Shown here one piece after another: positions 37,549-57,894 of a DNA stretch of 64,000 bases. Origin of the DNA: Thermoactinospora rubra (lineage in GTDB: Bacteria; Actinomycetota; Actinomycetes; Streptosporangiales; Streptosporangiaceae). The stretch spans positions 124,001 to 188,000 of the forward strand of contig NZ_KZ084325.1 of NCBI RefSeq assembly GCF_002093975.1, written 5' to 3'. Each line of letters starts with the position of its first letter. Positions within the stretch are counted from its first letter, which is position 1. The notes under the pieces are model-generated. The model was not told the origin of the DNA, searched no databases, and saw nothing but the letters and a program-made list of their open reading frames with translations. The position numbers were made by a program, and so were the translations under genes.

Positions 37549-40368
37549 ATGGTCGAGATGGTCGGACGACACGCGGAGCTTCAGACGCTGATCGGCTCGA
37601 TGACCCGCGCGCCGGCCGTCACCCTGGTGGAGGGCGAGGCCGGCATCGGCAAGACGCGGCTGGTCCGCGCCGCGGCCAAGGCGGTGGGCGCCGGCCGTAC
37701 GGTCCTGCTGGGACAGTGCCACCAGCTGCGCGAGCCGTTCCCCTACGGGCCGGTGTTCGAGGCGCTGCGCGAGCTGGACGGGCGGCTGCCGCCCCCGGCC
37801 GAGCTCAGCCCGGTCACCGGCGCGCTGCGCGGCCACCTGCCCGAGCTGGCCGGCCACCTGCCGCCCGCGCCGGAGCCGCTGACCGACCCGGCCGCCGACC
37901 GGCACCGGCTCTTCCGCGCCGTCCACGAGCTGCTGGCCGCCGCCGGCCCGGCCGTGCTGATCGTCGAGGACCTGCACTGGGCCGACGACGGCACCCTGGA
38001 CCTGCTGCGCTTCCTCACCCGGCGGCCGCCCGAGGGCCTGGCGACGGTCCTCACCTGCCGCCCGGCCCGCCACCGGCCGGCGGCCGGGCTCCCCCTCGGC
38101 TACGCCAGCGTCGTGATCTCGCTGGCGCCCCTGGACGAGCGCGACGTCGCGGAGCTGGCCGCGCGGCTGCTGGGCCGGCGGGACCTCGCGCCGCGGCTCG
38201 CCGCCCGGCTGCACGAGCGCACCGCCGGGATCCCCTTCCTGGTGGAGGAGGTCGTGCGCGCCCTCGGCCGGGACGGCCGGCCGGAGGCGCTGGAGCGGAC
38301 CGGGGTGCCGCTGCCGCTGCGCGAGGCGATGGCCGAGCAGCTGGCCAGGCTCTCCCCCGCCGCCCTGCGGGTGGCGCACGCCGCCGCGGTGCTGCGGCTG
38401 CCCGCCACCGAGCCCGCGCTGGCCGCCGTCGCCGGATCGGCCGACGGGCTGGAGGAGGCCCTGCGCGTGGGCGTCCTGACCGAGCGCCCCGACGGCCGGT
38501 ACGGCTTCCGCCACGCCCTGGCCCAGCAGGCCGTCTACGACTCCATCCCCGGCCCAGAACGCAGGCGCGCCCACGAGCGGGCCGCCGGCGTCCTGGCCGA
38601 GGCCGACCCGCCGCCGCTGGTGCAGCTCACCTTCCACGCCCGGCGGGCGGGACTGATCGAGTCCTGGCTGCGGTACGGCACGCAGGCCGCGCACCGGGCG
38701 GCGGCGCTCGGCGACCTCCCGCTGGCCGTCGAGGTGCTCGACGACATGCTGGCCGACCCGGAGTTACCCGCATCCGAGCGCGGGCCGCTGGTGCTGGCGC
38801 TCAGCCGCCTGGCGCTGACCGGGCTGTTCTACCCGCGCGTGCTGCGCCTGCTGCGGCACCTGCTGTCGGACGAGCAGCTGTCGCGGGAGCTGCGCGGCGA
38901 GGCGAGGCTGACGCTCGGCCTGCTGCTGCAGGGCCAGGTCGGCGACGTGGCCGCGGGGCGGCAGGCGATGCTGACGGCCGTGGAGGAGCTGGGCGACCGT
39001 CCCGGCCTGGCCGCCCGCGGCCTGGCGTGCCTGGCGATGCCGGGCTGGGGCCGCGAGTCGCTGGCCGGGCACGAGGAGTACATGGCGCGGGCGGAGGCGC
39101 TGGTGGCCGGCGCCGAGGCGCCGGAGCTGGCCGCCGCCGTCCAGGCCAACCGCGCCGCCATCGCCATGGCGGTCGGCGCGCCTGAGGTGTTCGAGCTGGC
39201 CCGCGCCCTGCCCGCGACCCACCCCTCGGCGGCCGTGCGCCGCGAGGTGGCCCGCGGCTACTGCAACCTCTACGACCTGGGCGTCACCCTCGGCGTGTAC
39301 GGCGAGGCCGAGCGCTTCGGCCGCCAGGGACGGGCGCTGGCCGAGGAGTCGGGCGCCCTGTTCCCCGTCTTCCTGACGCAGGGGGCGGCGCTGCGGCTGG
39401 ACTGGCTGACCGGCCGCTGGGACGGGCTGGCCGGGCGAGCCTTGGCGCTGGTGGAGGCCGCGGCCGACGCGCCGCTGGCGGCCGTGGAGGCCCACCTGGT
39501 ACTGGGACTGCTCGCCGTCGCCACCGGCGAGTGGGCCGAGGCGGAGACACGGCTGCGCGCGGCCGGGGTGGACGAGCCCGACGACCGCTACCTGCCCGTC
39601 GTCCTGGCCGCCTGGGCCGGGCTGGTGGAGCTGCTGCTGGCCCGCGGCCAGGCCGCGCCGGCCGCCAAGGAGGCCCGCAGGGCCGTCGCCCGGCTGCGCG
39701 AGAAGACGGTCTGGGCCTGGGGCGACCAGCTCGTGCCCGGCGCGGTGTCCGCCCTGGCGGCGGTCGGGCGCCTGGAGGAGGCCGACGCGCTCGTCGGCGA
39801 GTTCGCCGCCGGGCTGGAGGGCCGGCTGGCGCCTTCCGCCCTGGCCGGGCTCGACCTGGCCGAAGGCACGCTGGAGGCGGCCCGGGGCCGCCAGGCCGAG
39901 GCCGCCAAGTGCTTCGACAGGGCGCGCGAGGCCCTGGAGGCGCTGCCCCAGCCGTACAACGCCGCCCGGGCCGCCGCCGCGCACGCCACCGCCCGGCTGG
40001 CCCTGGGGGACCGTACGGCCGCCGCCGAGGGCATGGCGCAGGCCGCCGAGCGGTTCGCCGCGCTGGGCGCCACCCGGGAGGCGGCCCGCTGCCGGCACGC
40101 CCTGCGCGAGTGGGGGCTGGCCACGCCGGTGCCGCGCCGCAGCAGGGACGGCGTGCTGTCGGCCCGCGAGCTGGAGGTGGCCCGCCTGGTGGCGCAGGGG
40201 CGGACCAACAGGGAGATCGCCGAGGTGCTGTTCCTGTCGCGGCGCACGGTCGAGACGCACGTGGCCACCGTGCTGCGCAAGCTCGGCGTGCCCTCCCGCG
40301 CGCACATCGTGGCCGCGCTGCCGGAGCAGCGCGGCCACGCTCGCCAGGGTCGCCCGTCAGGCTCCTAG
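37549..40368 (+). CDS. Large LuxR-family ATPase regulator (LAL/MalT-like)
   Basis: 939 residues. N-terminal AAA/STAND ATPase: Walker A VEGEAGIGKTRLV, Walker B VLIVEDLHWADDG, and an Arg-rich sensor region. A long helical, TPR-like middle (about 300-850) rich in Ala, Leu and Glu follows, then a C-terminal LuxR HTH (LSARELEVARLVAQGRTNRE and VETHVATVLRKLGV). Such LAL regulators activate transcription after ligand and ATP binding, often for secondary metabolism or catabolism. Target unknown; the convergent secreted protease and upstream PBP are neighbours, not clear targets. CGGAG precedes the chosen ATG. Confidence 0.9.
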   Translation: MVEMVGRHAELQTLIGSMTRAPAVTLVEGEAGIGKTRLVRAAAKAVGAGRTVLLGQCHQLREPFPYGPVFEALRELDGRLPPPAELSPVTGALRGHLPELAGHLPPAPEPLTDPAADRHRLFRAVHELLAAAGPAVLIVEDLHWADDGTLDLLRFLTRRPPEGLATVLTCRPARHRPAAGLPLGYASVVISLAPLDERDVAELAARLLGRRDLAPRLAARLHERTAGIPFLVEEVVRALGRDGRPEALERTGVPLPLREAMAEQLARLSPAALRVAHAAAVLRLPATEPALAAVAGSADGLEEALRVGVLTERPDGRYGFRHALAQQAVYDSIPGPERRRAHERAAGVLAEADPPPLVQLTFHARRAGLIESWLRYGTQAAHRAAALGDLPLAVEVLDDMLADPELPASERGPLVLALSRLALTGLFYPRVLRLLRHLLSDEQLSRELRGEARLTLGLLLQGQVGDVAAGRQAMLTAVEELGDRPGLAARGLACLAMPGWGRESLAGHEEYMARAEALVAGAEAPELAAAVQANRAAIAMAVGAPEVFELARALPATHPSAAVRREVARGYCNLYDLGVTLGVYGEAERFGRQGRALAEESGALFPVFLTQGAALRLDWLTGRWDGLAGRALALVEAAADAPLAAVEAHLVLGLLAVATGEWAEAETRLRAAGVDEPDDRYLPVVLAAWAGLVELLLARGQAAPAAKEARRAVARLREKTVWAWGDQLVPGAVSALAAVGRLEEADALVGEFAAGLEGRLAPSALAGLDLAEGTLEAARGRQAEAAKCFDRAREALEALPQPYNAARAAAAHATARLALGDRTAAAEGMAQAAERFAALGATREAARCRHALREWGLATPVPRRSRDGVLSARELEVARLVAQGRTNREIAEVLFLSRRTVETHVATVLRKLGVPSRAHIVAALPEQRGHARQGRPSGS

Positions 40369-45773: not shown

Positions 45774-48700
45774 TCACCCGCCCAGGCAGGCGGGCCCGAG
45801 CAGCTGCTTCAGGTCGCCCATCAGCGCCGGGGAAGGCGTGACCCGGTAGCGGTCCTCCACCCGCATGACCGTCGTCTTCGGCCCGTTGTGCACCTGGAGA
45901 TGCACCTCCGAGGTGCCCGGGTGGGTGGTGAGGATCTCCTTCAGCCGGGAGACGACCGGCGGCGTGCACCGCTGCAACGGCAGCGAGACCACCAGGGGCC
46001 CGCCCGCCTCGACGGTCAGATCGGGCGCCGTGACCTCCATGGCGATGATCTTGGCGACCTCCTCCCGCTTGTCGATGCGTCCCTTGACGAAGACGATCGC
46101 GTCCTCCGCCAGGATGGTGGAGCACAGCTGGTAGGTGGACGGGAAGATCATGACCTCGATGGCGCCCTCGAGGTCCTCCAGCTGGGTAAGCACCCAGGTG
46201 TCGCCCTTCTTGGTGACCTTGCGCTGCAGGCCCGACAGGATGCCGCCCACGGTGACGATCTGGCCGTCGACGCGCGTCTCGTCCTGGAGCGCGGCGATCG
46301 AGCAGTCGGCTCCGGCCGACAGGATGTGCTCGACGCCCAGCAGCGGGTGGTCGGAGACGTACAGGCCCAGCATCTCCCGCTCGAACTGCAGCAGCGTGCT
46401 CTTGTCCCACTCGCCGACCGGGATCTGCACGTCGAATGTCTGGTCCTCGCCGCCCTCGACGGCGCCGAAGAGCGAGTCTTGCCCGATGGCCTCGTTCTTC
46501 TTGATGTCGATGATCGCGTCGACGGCCTGCTCGTGCACCATGACCAGGCCCTTGCGGACGTGGCCGAGCGAGTCGAAGGCGCCCGCCTTGATCAGCGACT
46601 CGATGACGCGCTTGTTGCAGACGATCGCCGGGACCTTGCGCAGGAAGTCCTTGAAGTCGGAGAAGCGGCCCTTCTCCTTGCGCGCGGTGATGATGCCGTC
46701 GACGACGTTGCCGCCGACGTTGCGGATGGCCGACAGGCCGAAGCGGATGTCGGAGCCGCGCGGAGTGAAGTCGAAGTCGGAGTCGTTGACGTCGGGCGGC
46801 AGGACCTTGATGCCCATCCGGCGGCACTCGTTGAGATACAGCGCCGACTTGTCCTTGTCGTCCTTGACCGAGGTCAGCAGGGCGGCCATGTACTCGGCCG
46901 GGTAGTTGGCCTTCAGGTAGGCGGTCCAGTAGGCGACCAGGCCGTATCCGGCGGTGTGGGCCTTGTTGAAGGCGTAGTCGGAGAAGGGCAGCAGGATGTC
47001 CCACAGGGCCTTGACGGCCGCGTCGGAGAAGCCGTTGTCCTTCATGCCCTTTTCGAAGAACTCGAACTGCTTGTCCAGCTCGGCCTTCTTCTTCTTGCCC
47101 ATCGCGCGCCGCAGCAGGTCGGCGCCGCCGAGGGTGTAGTTGGCCACCTTCTGGGCGATGGCCATGACCTGCTCCTGATAGACGATCAGGCCGTAGGTCG
47201 TGTCGAGGATCTCCTTGAGCGGCTCCTCCAGCTCCGGGTGGATCGGGGTGATCTCCTGCTGGCCGTTCTTGCGCAGCGCGTAGTTGGTGTGCGAGTTGGC
47301 GCCCATCGGGCCCGGCCGATACAGCGCCAGGGCCGCGGAGATGTCCTCGAAGTTGTCGGGGCGCATCATGCGCATGAGCGTGCGCATGCCGCCGCCGTCG
47401 AGCTGGAACACGCCCAGGGTGTCGCCGCGGGCCAGCAGCTCGTAGGTCTTCTTGTCGTCCAGCGGCAGGGCCAGCAGGTCGATCTTCTGGCCCGTGTTGA
47501 GCTCGATCATCTTCAGGCAGTCGTCGATGATCGTGAGGTTGCGCAGGCCCAGGAAGTCCATCTTCAGCAGGCCGAGCGCCTCGCAGGTCGGGTAGTCGAA
47601 CTGCGTGATGATCGCGCCGTCGGAGTCGCGGCGCATGATCGGGATGTAGTCGGTCAGCGGCTCGGCGGACATGATGACGCCCGCGGCGTGCACGCCGGTC
47701 TGCCGGATCAGGCCCTCCAGGCCGCGCCCGAGGTCGATCGTGGCCTTGACGTCGACGTCCTCTTCGTACAGCTTGCGCAGCTCGCCCGCCTCGTTGTAGC
47801 GCGGGTGCTCGGGGTCGAAGATGCCCGACAGCGGGATGTCCTTGCCCATCACGGCGGGCGGGAACGCCTTGGAGATGCGGTCGCCCAGGGCGTACGGGTA
47901 TCCCAGCACGCGCCCGGCGTCCTTGACGGCGGCCTTGGCCTTGATGGTGCCGAACGTGGCGATCATGGCGACCTTGTCGGCGCCCCACTTCTCGGTCACG
48001 TAGCGGATCACGTCGGCGCGCCGGCGCTCGTCGAAGTCGATGTCGATGTCGGGCATCGAGACGCGCTCGGGGTTGAGGAAGCGCTCGAAGATCAGGCCGT
48101 GGGGGATCGGGTCGAGGTCGGTGATGCCCAGCGCGTAGGCCACCAGCGAGCCGGCCGCCGAGCCACGGCCCGGCCCGACGCGGATGCCGTTGTTCTTGGC
48201 CCACATGATGAAGTCGGACACGACCAGGAAGTAGCTGGGGAAGCCCATCTGGACGATGACCGCGATCTCGTTCTCGACCCAGGCGCGGTGCTCCTCGTCC
48301 ACCCCGTCGGGGAAGCGCCGCCGCATGCCCTCCCACACCTGCCGGCGGAAGTACTCCTCCTCCGTCATCCCCTCGGGGACGGGGAAGGTCGGCATGAGGT
48401 TCTTGTGCTCGAAGAAGCCGGCCGGGTCGACCTTCTCGGCGACCAGCAGCGTGTTGCGGCAGCCCTCCTGCCACAGGTCGGAGGAGTCGATGCCGCGCAT
48501 CTCGTCGGCGGTCTTGATGTAGTAGCCGGTGCCGTCGAAGCGGAAGCGGTCGGGGTCGGACAGCTGCTTGCCGGTCTGAATGCACAGCAGGGCGTCGTGG
48601 GAGGCGGCGTCGGACTCGTAGGTGTAGTGCGAGTCGTTGGTGACCAGCGGCGGGATGCCCAGCTCCTTGCTGATGCGGGTCAGCCCGTCGCGGACCCGGC

Positions 48701-50462
48701 GCTCGATGTCGAGCCCGTGGTCCATGATCTCCAGGAAGTAGTTGTCCTTGCCGAAGATCTCCTGGTATCTCGCCGCGGCCTTGACCGCCTCGTCGTACTG
48801 CCCCAGCCGCAGCCTGGTCTGCACCTCGCCCGACGGGCAGCCCGTGGTGGCCATGAGGCCCTCGGCGTGCTCGGCGAGGATCTCGGCGTCCATGCGTGGC
48901 CACTTGCGCACGAAGCCCTCGGTGTAGGCGCGCGAGGACAGCTTCATCAGGTTGTGCAGGCCGGTCTTGTTGCGCGCCCAGATCGTCATGTGGGTGTAGT
49001 AGCCGCCGGCGGAGACGTCGTCGCTCTTCTGGTGCGGCTCGCCCCACAGCACCGGCCTCTTGTTGTGCCGGGTCTCGGGCGCGACGTAGGCCTCGCAGTT
49101 GTGCAGAATGAAGTCGGAGATGTAGGAGTTGTCCTCCTCCACCTCGAAGTTGAAGACCTCGCAGTCAAGTTCGACCCGCTCGACATCCGCGACCGGCCGG
49201 TAAATGTAACGCTCGTCGCCGAGTGTCCGGGAGTAGGCGCGCTCGGGCTGGTAGGCCACCTGGTACCAGCGGTACTCGCGCTCGGAGTCGCCTTGCGGGA
49301 AGCGCCCCTTCTCTGTCCCGCTTGAGACGACTGCCCAATGACCGAGATCAGCCAAAAGGGTGCGGATGCCCCACGCGAGCGAACGCGAGGCGACCTTCAC
49401 GTCCCGGCGACCGGAGGGATTGGACACGCGGAGGGGATTGCGCCCGTCTCCGTCAAGGAAGCCCTCCAGGAACGCCGACCTGAATTCCACGGGCCCGTTC
49501 AGGACGCAAGACGGCACCTGCTTGTCGCGGGCTCCCGCGCCGACAAGCGACTTGAGCAGGTGGGCCAGCGGGACGTTGCACGCACGGAGCTCCTGGCTCC
49601 CCTTTGCGGCTCGCACCTCGGTCTGCACGGCCACGCCGTACTCGCCCAGAATCTGGCGCAGCCGCTCGGCCAGGGTGGTCTCGGTGAGGTTCAGGGTGAA
49701 CCTGATGCCGCCGTTGAGCTGGCCGCCGACAGTCTGGAGATGGCCTTCGGCCGCGAAGACGCCGAGGAGATAGCCGAAGTCGTGGTCGAGTGGCATCCGG
49801 CGGGGTAGCCTCGCCCATCGTTCGTCTGCGCGGCATTTGGCTGCGTAGGAGCGGACGATCCCTCCCTCCGCGCTCTCGGCGAAGGACTCGGGCAAGTGCT
49901 CAAGAAGGTCGAGCTCGACGACCTCGGTCGCGAGCCGGGGCAGGCACACCCACGAGTTCCAGCTCTTCGCTCCACCGCGCGCGTTTCGCCTGCCGTACGC
50001 GATATCTCCCGGTTTGCGCCAGTCAACAAGCCCGTCGGGAGTGCGGACCAAGACCGGGTGCTCTTCGGTCAGCGTGAGCGTGCGCCCGTAGCGCCCGGCC
50101 AGGCTGATGGTGTAAGCCGTGCCTTGATACGGCCTGCGCATGGTGCGCAGGACCTTGCGGAACCGGCCGCGGTGGGTGAGCACCAGATCGCCCACCTCGA
50201 CGTCCTCGACGTTCTTCACGCCCGCGGCGGTGACGATCTCCTGCCCCGGCAGCAGACAGCCGATGATCGGTTTGACCCCGGCCGCCGTCGCCTGCTTGTA
50301 GAAGTCGTAGGCGCCGTGCATGTTGCCGTGGTCGGTGATCGCGATGGCCGGCATGCCGAGCTCGGCCACGACCTTGAACATCTGCTTGAGCCGAGCCGCC
50401 CCGTCCAGCATCGAATACTCGGTGTGCACGTGGAGGTGGACGAACGAGTCGCTGGACGTCAT
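45774..50462 (-). CDS. dnaE: DNA polymerase III alpha subunit, intein-containing
   Basis: 1562 residues, of which 387 are an intein (separate entry); the spliced protein is about 1175 residues, normal for DnaE1. PHP domain at the N-terminus ([30 protein letters not shown]), polymerase core with [17 protein letters not shown] and the catalytic [12 protein letters not shown], then the tandem HhH and OB regions ([19 protein letters not shown]). Replicative polymerase. Function requires splicing, because the intein splits the PHP domain after KPIIG. Single gene, with SGNH esterase divergent upstream. Confidence 0.96.
49098..50258 (-). other. LAGLIDADG intein in DnaE
   Basis: 387 residues (69-455 of the precursor). 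Begins with Cys ([13 protein letters not shown], block A), has the block B-like [12 protein letters not shown], two LAGLIDADG motifs ([14 protein letters not shown] and [10 protein letters not shown]) of a DOD homing endonuclease, block [14 protein letters not shown], and ends with SDFILHN before extein Cys 456 (CEAYVAP). All splicing residues (Cys1, block B His, penultimate His, terminal Asn, Cys+1) are present, and both LAGLIDADG motifs keep an acidic residue. By eye it uses more A/T-ending codons than dnaE, as expected of a recently mobile element. Confidence 0.95.
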
Positions 50463-51760: not shown

Positions 51761-52600
51761 TCAGCGGCGGCGCTCCTCGGCCAGGCGCAGCCCGGCCTCG
51801 ATGACGGCGTTCATGATCGGGGCGAGCCCGGCCTCGCCCAGGGAGGGGGCGCGGGTGGCCATCGCCTCGACGAGCCGGCGCTCCCGCTCGGGGTCCCGCC
51901 CGGCGAAGCCGCCGACCGGCTTGAGCGCCTGGATGCGCACGGCCAGCTCGGCCCGCCGTTCCAGCAGGGTCGCCAGGGCGGCGTCGACGCGGTCGACGGC
52001 CTGGCGGCACTCGGCGAGCGTGCCGGGGCGTTCGGGGCGAACCAGGGCGCCGATGAGCGTGGCGGCCTCGCGGGCGGCCAGCACGTCGGCGTCGGCGGCC
52101 TCCGGGGCCAGCAGCAGCCCGTCGGCTCCGGCGGCGACGGCGGCCCCCGCCAGCCTGGCGCGGCCCGAGACTTCGGCCAGCACCGGCCGTCCCGACCGCT
52201 CTCGCACGGCCCGCAGCAGGCCCAGGTCCAGCGCGTCGTTCTCGCACAGGATCAGCTGGTCGTTGCCCTCGGCCACGCAGGCGTCGGCCACGCCGAGCCA
52301 TTCGTCCATGGTGGCGCCCGTGCCGCGCTGGAGCACCAGCGGCAGCCCGAGCCGGGCCGCCGCCCGCACCCGCGCCTGGTCGTCCGCCCAGGTGGCGCCC
52401 ACGATCACACCCGCCGCCCGCGCCGGGATCTCACCACCGCCCGGCTCGACGAGCAGCGGCCGGTCCCCGGGCCCGGCGCCGGTCTCGCCCGCTCTCACCC
52501 ACGCCGCGTCCCCGCGCTCGCCGCCGAGGACCACCGCGGGCCCCTCGCCGATCCGCAGGCCGCCCAGCGCCACGACACGGCGCTCCAGGGTCGCTGACAT
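51761..52600 (-). CDS. Degenerate DAHP synthase-like domain fused to AroQ chorismate mutase
   Basis: 279 residues. Residues about 1-190 look like a shortened class I DAHP synthase/KDO8PS barrel: LGLPLVLQRGTGATMDEWLG and EGNDQLILCE align with the KPVLLKRG and ILCERG blocks, and AGADGLLLAPE with the final strand. The catalytic Lys of KxG is Gln, the Arg after ILCE is lost, and the metal-binding DPSH block is replaced by AEVSGRAR, so this part is probably not a synthase. Residues about 200-279 are an AroQ-type chorismate mutase (CRQAVDRVDAALATLLERRA, RDPERERRLVEAM). Start ATG with AAGGGAG upstream. A terminator and leader peptide precede it. Confidence 0.8.
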   Translation of the reverse strand: MSATLERRVVALGGLRIGEGPAVVLGGERGDAAWVRAGETGAGPGDRPLLVEPGGGEIPARAAGVIVGATWADDQARVRAAARLGLPLVLQRGTGATMDEWLGVADACVAEGNDQLILCENDALDLGLLRAVRERSGRPVLAEVSGRARLAGAAVAAGADGLLLAPEAADADVLAAREAATLIGALVRPERPGTLAECRQAVDRVDAALATLLERRAELAVRIQALKPVGGFAGRDPERERRLVEAMATRAPSLGEAGLAPIMNAVIEAGLRLAEERRR

Positions 52601-52668
52601 CGGCCGCTCCCTTCCCTCGCCCGGCCCCGCGCCCGGAGCCGGCCCTGACGACAAGCATTGACGGCAAC

Positions 52669-52699
52669 AAAAAGGGCAGAGACGCGAGTGGTCCCTGCC
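52669..52699 (-). terminator. Intrinsic terminator in the leader of the chorismate mutase fusion
   Basis: On the minus strand GGCAGGGAC, a 7-base loop and GTCTCTGCC form a 9-bp stem (one G-U), followed after one C by TTTTT. It lies 69 bp upstream of the gene's ATG and downstream of a TAGGGT promoter element, the position of an attenuator. A free-standing small RNA ending here is the alternative. Confidence 0.7.
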
Positions 52700-52721
52700 T
52701 GATGCCGGCTCCAGGTGGTCG

Positions 52722-52778
52722 CTAGCGCACGACCGGCTCTCCCGGAACCGGCCTGGTAAACGCATAACGACAGGTCAT
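52722..52778 (-). CDS. Candidate leader peptide (18 aa) with aromatic and rare codons
   Basis: Frame MTCRYAFTRPVPGEPVVR, stop TAG. The ATG lies about nine bases after the -10-like TAGGGT, so translation could be leaderless. Codons 3-7 are TGT CGT TAT GCG TTT, four of five being A/T-ending and rare in this genome, with Tyr and Phe close together. The terminator begins 22 bases after the stop, and the gene downstream acts at the Phe/Tyr/Trp branch point. The coding evidence is positional only. Confidence 0.45.
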   Translation of the reverse strand: MTCRYAFTRPVPGEPVVR

Positions 52779-52792
52779 GGTCCATGACCCTA
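52773..52792. promoter_or_regulatory. 17-bp perfect palindrome overlapping a TAGGGT -10 element
   Basis: GGTCATGG T CCATGACC (52773-52789) is an exact palindrome around one central base. On the minus strand TAGGGT (52792-52787) overlaps its edge, so a protein bound here would block transcription of the leader and chorismate mutase gene. The 270-bp gap 52601-52870 also has to hold the plus-strand kinase promoter, which I could not locate. Confidence 0.55.
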
Positions 52793-52870: not shown

Positions 52871-54859
52871 ATGGGAGGATTTCTTGGCCTAGAAAGGGGT
52901 TTGTGGCCGTTGAGACACGACGCGGGACGCCGGATCGCCGGTCGATACCACCTCCTGGAGCCCATCGGCAGGGGCGGCATGGGCGTCGTCTGGCGAGCGC
53001 ACGACGAGCTCCTCGACCGCACCGTCGCGGTCAAGGAAGTCAGGTACAGCTCGGCCCTGGGCGAGGAGGTGCAGCTGCTCAACCGGCGCACCATGCGCGA
53101 GGCCAGGGCGGCGGCCAGGTTCGAGCATCCCAACGTCATCGTCGTCTACGACGTGATCGAGGAGGACGACCAGCCGTGGATCGTCATGCAGCTGGTCCCC
53201 TCCAAGTCCCTGGGGGCGGTGATCAAACAGGACGGCCCGTTACCACCCGGCCGCGTCGCGGAGATCGGCCTGGCCGTCCTGGAGGCCCTGCACAGCGCCC
53301 ATGAGGCGGGCGTCCTGCACCGCGACGTGAAGCCGGAGAACGTGCTGCTCGCCGACGACGGCCGCGTCGTGCTCACCGACTTCGGCATCGCCACGCTCGA
53401 GACCGAGACGCAGCTGACCATGACCGGCCTGGCCGGGACGCCGGCGTTCATCGCGCCGGAACGGCTGCGCGGCCTGCCCGCCCGCCGCGAGTCGGACCTG
53501 TGGGCGCTCGGCGCCACGCTCCACACCGCGGTCGAGGGCCGCGCCCCGCACGAGCGCGGCATGGTCATGGCCACCATGAACGCGGTGCTCAACGAGGATC
53601 CCGACCCCGCGCCGCACGCGGGGCCGCTGGCGCCGGTCATCGCCGGGCTGCTGGCCAAGGAGCCCGAGCACCGGCTGACCTACGCCGAGGCGGCCAGGAT
53701 GCTGCGCGAGATCATCCGGCAGACGCGGGCCGCCGAGGACGGGCCGGACGTCGACGACACCCCGACCGACCCGACGCTGCGTGCCGTACCCGCCGAGGAT
53801 CCCCGCCCGGCCGCCCGGCCCGAGCGCAGGCCGCGGCTGTGGCGCCGCCCCGCCGCGCCCGCCACGCCTGCCGTGCCCCCAGTGCCCCCTGCGTCGTCCC
53901 CTGCGTCCGCCCAGGGGGGCGCGGCGACCCCGCCCGAGACGGGCGCGCGGCTGAGCCCGGACGCCGGAGCCGCCCGCCAGGACAGCCCGCGCCAGGGCGA
54001 GCCCGGCGAGACGCCCGAGTCGCCCAAGACACCCGAGACGCCCAAGGCGACGGCCGCCGAGTCCCCCCGGCCGTCGGGCGCGGGCACGCCGCGCACCGTC
54101 CCGAGCCCGTCCGCCACGGCCCGGCAGACCGAGCCCTCCACCGAGGGAGAGCCCGCGCCGCGCCGCGTGCTGCCGATGGCCGTCGCCGTGGCCACGGCCA
54201 TCGCCGTGGTCGCCGGCGTGGGCGGCTGGCTGGGCCTGCGCTCGGCCGCCCAGCAGGAGCGGCCCCAGGACCGCCCCACCGCCACGGGCGCGGCCTCCAG
54301 CCCGGCCGCGAGCCAGGCGCCTGCGACCCCGTCCGCCCAGCCCACCACGCCGAGCCCTTCGGCCTCCCCCTCTCCGTCCCCGACGCCGTCGCCGTCGCAG
54401 CAGGCCGGCGCCCTGCCGGAGGGCTGGAAGATGTACAAGGACGAGGAGCTGGGCTTCTCCGTCGGCCTGCCGAAGGGCTGGAAGCCGTACAAGCGCAACG
54501 GCCCCCAGGTCTACTTCCGCGGCCCCGGCACCGCGCCGAACGCCTTCCTCATGATCGAGGACGGCGGGAAGGCGAAGTCCGACCCCTACGAGGACTGGAT
54601 CAGGCAGGAGCCCGTACTCAAGCACAACTTCGGCGGCTACAAGAAGCTCCACATCAAGCGGGTCGACTACATGAAGGACGCCGCCGACTGGGAGTTCACC
54701 TGGAAGACCAACTCGGGCAAGTGCCGGGTGCGCAACCGCGGCTTCGTCACCGACAACGGCCGCGCCTACGCCCTCTACTGGCACAACCTCGACAGCCGCT
54801 GGAAGAAGGACCTGCACTTCTTCGACTCCTTCGCCGCCACGTTCAAACCCGCCGACTAG
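52871..54859 (+). CDS. Membrane Ser/Thr protein kinase 1
   Basis: 662 residues from ATG 52871; TTG codons at 52901 and 52910, closer to AGAAAGG, are alternatives, since the kinase fold begins at AGRYHLLEPIGRGGMG. Hanks-type domain: TVAVKEV Lys, HRDVKPENVLL (Asp about 152), TDFGIA, GTPAFIAPERL. A long Pro/Ala/Thr-rich linker leads to one transmembrane helix (about 434-456), another Ser/Pro tract, then an external domain of about 130 residues (LPEGWKMYKDEELGFSVGLP). No PASTA repeats. The external domain resembles that of kinase 2. Confidence 0.93.
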   Translation: MGGFLGLERGLWPLRHDAGRRIAGRYHLLEPIGRGGMGVVWRAHDELLDRTVAVKEVRYSSALGEEVQLLNRRTMREARAAARFEHPNVIVVYDVIEEDDQPWIVMQLVPSKSLGAVIKQDGPLPPGRVAEIGLAVLEALHSAHEAGVLHRDVKPENVLLADDGRVVLTDFGIATLETETQLTMTGLAGTPAFIAPERLRGLPARRESDLWALGATLHTAVEGRAPHERGMVMATMNAVLNEDPDPAPHAGPLAPVIAGLLAKEPEHRLTYAEAARMLREIIRQTRAAEDGPDVDDTPTDPTLRAVPAEDPRPAARPERRPRLWRRPAAPATPAVPPVPPASSPASAQGGAATPPETGARLSPDAGAARQDSPRQGEPGETPESPKTPETPKATAAESPRPSGAGTPRTVPSPSATARQTEPSTEGEPAPRRVLPMAVAVATAIAVVAGVGGWLGLRSAAQQERPQDRPTATGAASSPAASQAPATPSAQPTTPSPSASPSPSPTPSPSQQAGALPEGWKMYKDEELGFSVGLPKGWKPYKRNGPQVYFRGPGTAPNAFLMIEDGGKAKSDPYEDWIRQEPVLKHNFGGYKKLHIKRVDYMKDAADWEFTWKTNSGKCRVRNRGFVTDNGRAYALYWHNLDSRWKKDLHFFDSFAATFKPAD

Positions 54860-57240: not shown

Positions 57241-57894
57241 ATGAAAGAGACATCCAGCGCGATTCGCGACGGATTGGGCGTGGGGATCGCCGTGGGGCTG
57301 TCCGGCGTGGCCTTCGGCGCGGCGGCCGTCACGGCGGGGCTGACCGTGGCGCAGGCGTGCGTGCTGAGCCTGCTCGCCTTCACCGGGGCCTCGCAGTTCG
57401 CCCTGGTGGGCGCGGCGGCCGGCGGCGGCAGCCTGCTCGCGGCCGCCGCGGGCGCCGTGCTGCTCGGGGGCCGCAACAGCCTCTACGGCCTGCGCCTGGC
57501 CGACTTGCTGAAGGTGCGCGGCGCCAGGAGGCTCGTGGCCGCGCACGGCGTGATCGACGAGTCCACGGCGGTGGCCATGGCCCAGCCCACGCCGGAGGCG
57601 GCCAGGGTCGGGTTCGTCACCACCGCCGCCACGATCTACGTGATGTGGAACCTGAGCACCCTGCTGGGCGCGCTGGGCACCGCCTTCCTGGGCGACCCGG
57701 CGGTCCTGGGAATCGACGTGGTGGGGCCCGCGGCGTTCCTGGCGATCCTGTGGCCGCGGCTGGCGGCGAGCGGGGAGCTGCGGCGGCTGGCGCTGGCCGG
57801 GGCCGGGCTGGCGCTGCTCGGCTCGCTGGTCTTGCCGGCCGGCGTGCCCGTGCTGCTGTCGGCGGTCGCGGTGCTTCCGGCGGTGCTGCGATGA
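57241..57894 (+). CDS. azlC: AzlC-family amino-acid exporter subunit
   Basis: 217 residues, five or six helices. AzlC pattern: IRDGLGVGIAVGLSGVAFGA, FTGASQFALVGAAAGGG, LLGGRNSLYGLRLADLL, HGVIDESTAVAMAQ. Acts with AzlD to export branched-chain amino acids or analogues. ATGA overlap with azlD. Confidence 0.93.
   Translation: MKETSSAIRDGLGVGIAVGLSGVAFGAAAVTAGLTVAQACVLSLLAFTGASQFALVGAAAGGGSLLAAAAGAVLLGGRNSLYGLRLADLLKVRGARRLVAAHGVIDESTAVAMAQPTPEAARVGFVTTAATIYVMWNLSTLLGALGTAFLGDPAVLGIDVVGPAAFLAILWPRLAASGELRRLALAGAGLALLGSLVLPAGVPVLLSAVAVLPAVLR

Follow-up and report, generated by a model that had tools for sequence, protein, structure and literature searches.

The window, a stretch of 64,000 nt from Thermoactinospora rubra, contains a chorismate mutase gene preceded by a short putative leader, and related leaders, situated before chorismate mutase or DAHP synthase genes, are found across several actinomycete families. 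We propose, with a probability that we put a little above one half (about 0.55), that this leader is a ribosome-operated switch that raises transcription of the chorismate mutase gene when tyrosine or phenylalanine is scarce. Comparison of the leaders demonstrates, at the level of sequence, a reading frame with leaderless spacing, its aromatic codons, a stop codon positioned in an RNA loop, a covarying arm and terminator, and a link to the genes downstream; the steps of the switch itself, from the start of transcription through translation and stalling to the direction in which control acts, we infer. The codon content of the leaders provides a natural test of amino acid sensing, because a chorismate mutase leader would need only Phe and Tyr codons. 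The conserved arm lies beside the terminator and not over it, an unusual geometry that poses a concrete and testable mechanistic question.

Organization of the leader region

The features of the leader region are listed in Table 1.

Table 1. Features of the chorismate mutase leader region, with positions in the window
Feature	Position	Strand	Remarks
-10 element TAGGGT	52787..52792	-	seen in the sequence; TAnnnT also in 45/45 aligned leaders
Leader frame MTCRYAFTRPVPGEPVVR with stop TAG	52722..52778	-	start and stop positions kept in 45/45 aligned leaders
Predicted stall codons	52758..52766	-	Tyr TAT (codon 5) and Phe TTT (codon 7), with GCG between
Seg1 GCCGGTTCCGG	52742..52752	-	can pair with Seg2 or Seg3
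Seg2 GAGCCGGTCG	52730..52739	-	can pair with Seg1 in place of Seg3; GGTCG within it also pairs with CGACC
CGACC	52717..52721	-	3′ side of inner stem; stop codon within its loop
Seg3 CTGGAGCCGGC	52704..52714	-	3′ side of the conserved Seg1:Seg3 arm
Terminator-like hairpin and T tract	52669..52699	-	stem 52699-52675, then CTTTTT
Chorismate mutase fusion gene	51761..52600	-	279 aa; start ATG at 52600

The elements that the first-pass annotation had reported here are present. The TAGGGT -10 element is found at 52792-52787, and the ATG of the leader frame (52778) is 14 nt downstream of its first T, a spacing compatible with initiation at, or close to, the transcript's 5′ end and hence with the possibly leaderless frame suggested there. 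The frame consists of 18 codons (52778-52725) followed by a TAG stop codon (52724-52722), and we predict that it is translated from the transcript's 5′ end. The run of rare codons including Tyr and Phe is likewise borne out: among the 3101 codons of five window genes, TTT accounts for only 1 of 88 Phe codons, TGT for 1 of 29 Cys codons, and TAT for 7 of 78 Tyr codons. The sequence GCCGGTT (from 52752) is able to pair with either of two AGCCGG copies, as had been claimed, and the minimum-energy fold holds the longer pairing of GCCGGTTCCGG with CTGGAGCCGGC, the Seg1:Seg3 arm (z -2.4, with 3 of 200 shuffles folding equally well). The strong hairpin with its TTTTT tract is there too, and is conserved in relatives. 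Two terminator-like sites are found in the 6 kb scanned, compared to 0.8 (sd 0.9) in shuffled sequences; a site count is weak evidence by itself, so the case for the terminator rests on its conservation.

The 279-residue product of the downstream gene has a C-terminal CM_2 domain (E 8e-11 in a domain search), and an N-terminal partial DAHP-synthase-like stretch that scores 25.3 bits, just below the family cut-off of 25.5. There are no matches above the Rfam gathering scores, to T-boxes or any other family, in the window or in eight relatives; the lone sub-threshold match is to a microRNA family, with an E value of 1.8 and far under its cut-off. Past the T tract there is a GC-rich stretch (52645-52621, minus strand) that resembles Seg1-Seg2, and by eye a similar hairpin is present ahead of the gene in many relatives. 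Pairing of Seg3 with this hairpin was considered and rejected, the hairpin sequence being altered in one relative (L005) and unseen by eye in two Microbispora loci (L035 and L042).

Conservation of the leader among close relatives

Scanning of contigs identified 50 related loci in the genera Nonomuraea, Streptosporangium, Microbispora, Planobispora, Planomonospora, Sphaerisporangium, Sinosporangium, and Bailinhaonella. The leader is intact at 44 of them and interrupted at one (L003), and five others (L036, L040, L045, L046, and L048) end at a contig edge before the leader; all but the intact loci were dropped. Together with the window these give alignment A2 of 45 CM-fusion leaders, for which a TAnnnT sequence 8–19 nt upstream was required and aromatic residues were not a criterion, the window's own leader being picked by hand; the relatives cluster by genus, and the shuffle controls and Fisher p values reported below overstate their independence. 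At the interrupted locus, in Streptosporangium amethystogenes, approximately 168 extra bases (about 1205-1372) separate the stop codon from CGACC.

Alignment of the regions upstream of homologous genes had been put forward in the first-pass annotation as a check, and in A2 the start and stop of the frame, the aromatic codons, and the terminator are all conserved; three helices covary in a more diverse alignment (below). First, TAnnnT begins 12–14 nt ahead of the start codon in all 45 leaders even though 8–19 nt was accepted, so that the transcript probably begins at or adjoining the start codon; the start codon is GTG in place of ATG in L008 and L047. Second, all 45 leaders have a frame-0 stop codon 3–16 nt upstream of CGACC or a variant of it, within the same RNA loop; the length of this loop varies by non-multiples of three and the stop codon nonetheless stays within it. 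Third, the reading frame is kept by a 3 nt insertion in four leaders (L011, L016, L020, and L043), and is not kept after about codon 10, with insertions and deletions in the loop shifting the frame. It is the end of the frame that is conserved and not the C-terminal peptide, and this argues against a peptide with a function of its own. Finally, every CM-fusion leader has an aromatic residue at one or more of codons 2–9. Over this interval aromatic residues number 96 of 360 in frame 0, whereas the alternative frames yield 1 and 57, the 57 largely reflecting the GTTTAC of the same site. Starvation-induced frameshifting past the terminator was also entertained and set aside, as stop codons are present within the loop in the other two frames in many genomes.

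RNA structure and covariation

RNAalifold analysis of A2, aligned with MAFFT, gives the Seg1:Seg3 arm, the inner GGTCG:CGACC stem, and the terminator unprompted. Within this close set, pairing in the arm stands at 98.8% and two of the arm's pairs are changed on both sides; the Seg1:Seg2 pairing is possible in 98.9% of cells, with no both-sides change in that helix. A more diverse alignment of 46 rows (A4; 17 of the 45 close leaders and 29 divergent ones) has both-sides changes in 17 of 25 pairs, as many as are reached in 0 of 500 shuffles, although this covariation test is inflated by the fitting of A4 to the structure. All three helices have pairs changed on both sides, including 9 of 9 in the terminator stem, and 95.9% of the A4 cells are paired as compared to 33.2–44.6% when the partner strand is slid. 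Across the complete collection of 86 leaders described below, the Seg1:Seg3 match is better than that of 95% of shuffles in 81, the exceptions being L024, L038, L093, L123, and L124.

Distribution of related leaders and their aromatic codons

A covariance model built from A2 finds the leader in 76 of 150 genomes of the order and in 7 of 396 genomes of the phylum, where matches L107 and L108 look unrelated. Only two of six genomes carrying DAHP synthase leaders were recovered in the phylum search, and the model thus misses distant leaders. A second group of 24 leaders includes 20 that precede stand-alone chorismate mutase genes (96–134 aa), three that precede DAHPS-CM fusions (L086, L090, and L094), and one, L085, that precedes a frame for an AzlC permease (L085:489-1193). 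The first residues of this permease frame, MHDQVIDP, match those of chorismate mutases at related loci, as would result from a deletion fusing the start of a chorismate mutase gene to the AzlC frame. Leaders L084, L100, L104, and L105 precede type I DAHP synthase genes. When the DAHP synthase of L105 was used as a query, matches were found in 17 of 118 genomes of the class, and an aromatic leader of the same layout is located upstream at 13 of these 17 loci and is absent upstream at the other four (L114, L118, L119, and L120). One genome (G093) has two leaders of this type, L100 in front of its DAHP synthase gene and another full-scoring copy, L073.

The 86 leaders compared are those of the 45 CM fusions, the 24 of the second group, and 17 of DAHP synthases (the 13 from the L105 search together with L084, L100, L104, and L105). 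The 41 leaders outside the CM-fusion set were selected by two criteria, TAnnnT 11–15 nt before the start and an aromatic residue at one or more of codons 2–10, and their spacing and aromatic statistics are therefore partly built in. We dropped L081 as a duplicate of L038, the weak and unlike matches L101, L107, and L108, and L103 and L106, whose genomes are shared with L109 and L125. There are 28 leaders that were found by the RNA model only, of which 23 precede a CM_2 gene and four a DAHP synthase gene, with L085 as the exception; the remaining 58 were located through the CM_2 or DAHP synthase genes themselves.

The number of aromatic codons ranges from one to four per leader (a single one in 10 of 86). 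DAHP synthase serves the synthesis of Phe, Tyr, and Trp, and chorismate mutase only that of Phe and Tyr. Trp codons are present within codons 2–10 of 10 of the 17 DAHP synthase leaders, in motifs such as YWRF, WYWRF, WYAYF, and YFWF, but in only 1 of the 69 others (L047; Fisher p 6e-8, uncorrected for kinship), and seven DAHP synthase leaders lack Trp in this interval. Trp codons thus track the enzyme that also serves Trp, and the codon content appears to follow position in the pathway, which is what sensing of amino acids predicts. Taken with the conservation described above, it lends support to a ribosome-mediated response to aromatic amino acids. TTT serves as the final aromatic codon in 74 of 86 leaders, even though this codon is the one used so rarely for Phe in the window genes.

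Relationship between the arm and the terminator

Two properties of trp- and pheL-type attenuators are found in these leaders: a short frame rich in end-product codons, whose translation we infer from its conservation, and a terminator between the leader frame and the gene. The first-pass annotation had read the region as attenuation governed by a Tyr/Phe leader peptide, and the translated leader in that reading is strongly supported by the comparison; the classical link from alternative folds to the terminator was not found. Such a trp-type device would have an antiterminator that includes the 5′ arm of the terminator and competes with it, and the leader peptide, rare aromatic codons, terminator, and alternative pairings that it calls for are all present. 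However, neither a direct search nor folding with a ribosome mask identified an antiterminator that overlaps the terminator 5′ arm. A significant upstream match to this arm is missing in 85 of 86 leaders: L121, one of the 17 DAHP synthase leaders, has the single one, and there is none among the 45 CM-fusion or the 24 second-group leaders. Moreover, each of the 86 leaders was folded to the terminator end in four states (ribosome absent, or located at the first aromatic codon, the last aromatic codon, or the stop codon), and the probability of the terminator stem exceeds 0.9 in 81, 81, 82, and 81 leaders, respectively; the terminator assignment is doubtful in L038 and L078. In L123 and L124 Seg3 is itself the 5′ arm of the terminator and the two would compete in earnest, though equilibrium folding still favors the terminator. 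We consider a trp-type attenuator improbable. The T tract differs among the groups, with runs of at least five T residues in 35 of 45 CM-fusion, 9 of 24 second-group, and 1 of 17 DAHP synthase leaders, and 14 of the 17 DAHP synthase leaders have no T run above three.

The Seg1:Seg3 arm adjoins the terminator without overlap, a gap of 0–2 nt separating it from the extended stem in 69 of 86 leaders, and in 50 of 86 Seg1 follows the last aromatic codon at a distance of 5 nt. For the ribosome-operated switch that we favor, the ribosome would begin at the 5′ end of the mRNA and stall at the Tyr and Phe codons when these amino acids are scarce, leaving Seg1 wholly or mostly free so that the Seg1:Seg3 arm could form; the arm would then favor read-through into the chorismate mutase gene. 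A ribosome that proceeds to the stop codon, inside the loop of the arm, would keep the arm apart and the terminator would act. The arm has a modelled mean P of 0.72 in the absence of a ribosome. A ribosome positioned at the first aromatic codon raises this to 0.83, and values of 0.44 and 0.63 are obtained for one at the last aromatic codon and one at the stop codon, respectively. The footprint modelled for a ribosome whose A site holds the last aromatic codon extends over the start of Seg1, and a ribosome at the stop codon has the modelled arm closed round it. Because the arm is less probable for the former of these two positions than for the latter, the direction of control depends on a steric assumption, that the arm cannot close round a ribosome, and needs this together with stalling at the first aromatic codon. 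Base pairing does not explain how an arm that abuts the terminator without overlapping it would oppose it. The arm might achieve antitermination without an antiterminator by looping out the leader and holding the stalled ribosome beside the terminator, where the ribosome would block the hairpin; the fixed spacings of codon to Seg1 and of Seg3 to terminator fit such blocking, which we suggest tentatively and regard as unlikely. On this reading, a single device of the kind would govern both the entry into aromatic biosynthesis (DAHP synthase) and the Phe/Tyr branch (chorismate mutase) throughout the Actinomycetes.

Stalling could instead act at a later step, by altering mRNA stability or chorismate mutase translation, with the terminator setting a fixed basal level. 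The terminator does look unconditional in the folding model, and the GC-rich hairpin seen by eye in many relatives, downstream of the T tract and ahead of the gene, could serve such a role, but it is unseen by eye at some Microbispora loci (L035 and L042), and the close fit between arm and terminator suggests that the terminator belongs to the device; control at a later step thus seems to us a poor prospect. It is very unlikely that the region simply encodes a stable small RNA (~110 nt) whose promoter and terminator are its own and whose place before the gene is fortuitous: the strong fold and terminator and the highly conserved hairpin sequences would suit such an RNA, but 27 of the 28 leaders found by the RNA model only precede a CM_2 or DAHP synthase gene, and the frame, stop position, and Trp/Phe/Tyr content look selected. 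As to the 17 bp promoter palindrome that the first-pass annotation had offered as a possible repressor site, it exists (52789-52773) and has 8 bp arms at -10/+1 in the window; its longest arm is only 1–4 bp in the 44 other aligned leaders, so that the site itself is not conserved. The palindrome seems private to this genome, and a repressor acting there as the main control is extremely improbable.

Relationship to described leaders

The aroR-aroF transcript of Corynebacterium glutamicum is said to have been found leaderless by Neshat et al. in 2014. As judged from published descriptions, this attenuator is the closest known system: a leader peptide with F-Y-F precedes the DAHP synthase gene and Phe limitation enhances transcription (PMC11802643, PMC4046766). 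Both leader peptides are aromatic, with Phe-Tyr-Phe in aroR and Y-A-F in the window, but whereas aroR-aroF precedes a DAHP synthase gene, the window leader precedes a chorismate mutase gene with a partial DAHPS-like stretch; the DAHP synthase leaders (such as L105, L110, and L121–L125) are nearer to aroR-aroF in gene context. Phe/Tyr attenuation in Actinobacteria has therefore already been reported, at C. glutamicum aroF (PMC4046766, PMC11802643). The statement in the first-pass annotation that no description was known at this actinobacterial locus holds in the literature searched, in which there is no recognised description of a leader before an actinobacterial chorismate mutase gene.

The enterobacterial pheL leader has many Phe codons and an overlapping antiterminator, unlike the present leaders with their few aromatic codons and lack of antiterminator overlap. 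Both place a leader peptide before a gene containing chorismate mutase, that of pheA being the chorismate mutase–prephenate dehydratase gene, described as controlled by charged Phe-tRNA (PMC11802643). Actinobacterial attenuators of trp, leuS, and ilvB are described as having leader peptides, several of them leaderless and several with terminators (PMC1262725, PMC8079986). The trp terminators share complementary triples with antiterminators (Seliverstov et al. 2005, PMC1262725), and the present leaders differ from these as described in having no triples shared in this way; the same account reports no conserved structure before the Phe or Tyr operons of Actinobacteria. The logic of the model proposed for M. 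tuberculosis ilvB1, in which a ribosome at the stop codon blocks the antiterminator (PMC13236596), is that of the stop-codon ribosome that would prevent the arm here. Two shikimate-linked leader frames are listed among five bacterial genomes (PMC6429828), and are not placed in Actinobacteria in the portion of that account available; in the corresponding portions for S. lividans (PMC8079986) and for three C. diphtheriae leaders (PMC5784534) there is no Phe/Tyr leader.

Chorismate mutase genes and the neighborhood of the leader

A genome search identified the window gene as the sole CM_2 match. The possibility that it is the only chorismate mutase gene of the genome was rejected, as a CM_1 search found one AroH-type gene on the same contig (L127, G000:C3:53214-53561), unrelated to the CM_2 fusion of the window. 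No aromatic leader was seen upstream of this AroH-type gene. Two genes of this genome, the window gene among them, could thus supply the Phe/Tyr branch, and the leader of the window gene cannot be the sole control of that step.

The leader is flanked by a serine/threonine protein kinase gene (52871-54859, plus strand) that is transcribed in the opposite direction and starts 78 bases past the -10 element; beyond the kinase gene lies what by eye is a second kinase-like frame. ARAGORN predicts two tRNA-Ala(CGC) genes on the minus strand (39865-39962 and 54250-54347), the latter antisense within the kinase gene, and both are probably false. The dnaE gene (45774-50462, minus strand) probably holds an intein, since matches to Hint_2 and LAGLIDADG_3 split its PHP domain. 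An AzlC-like frame was also noted by eye within the window, at 57241-57894.
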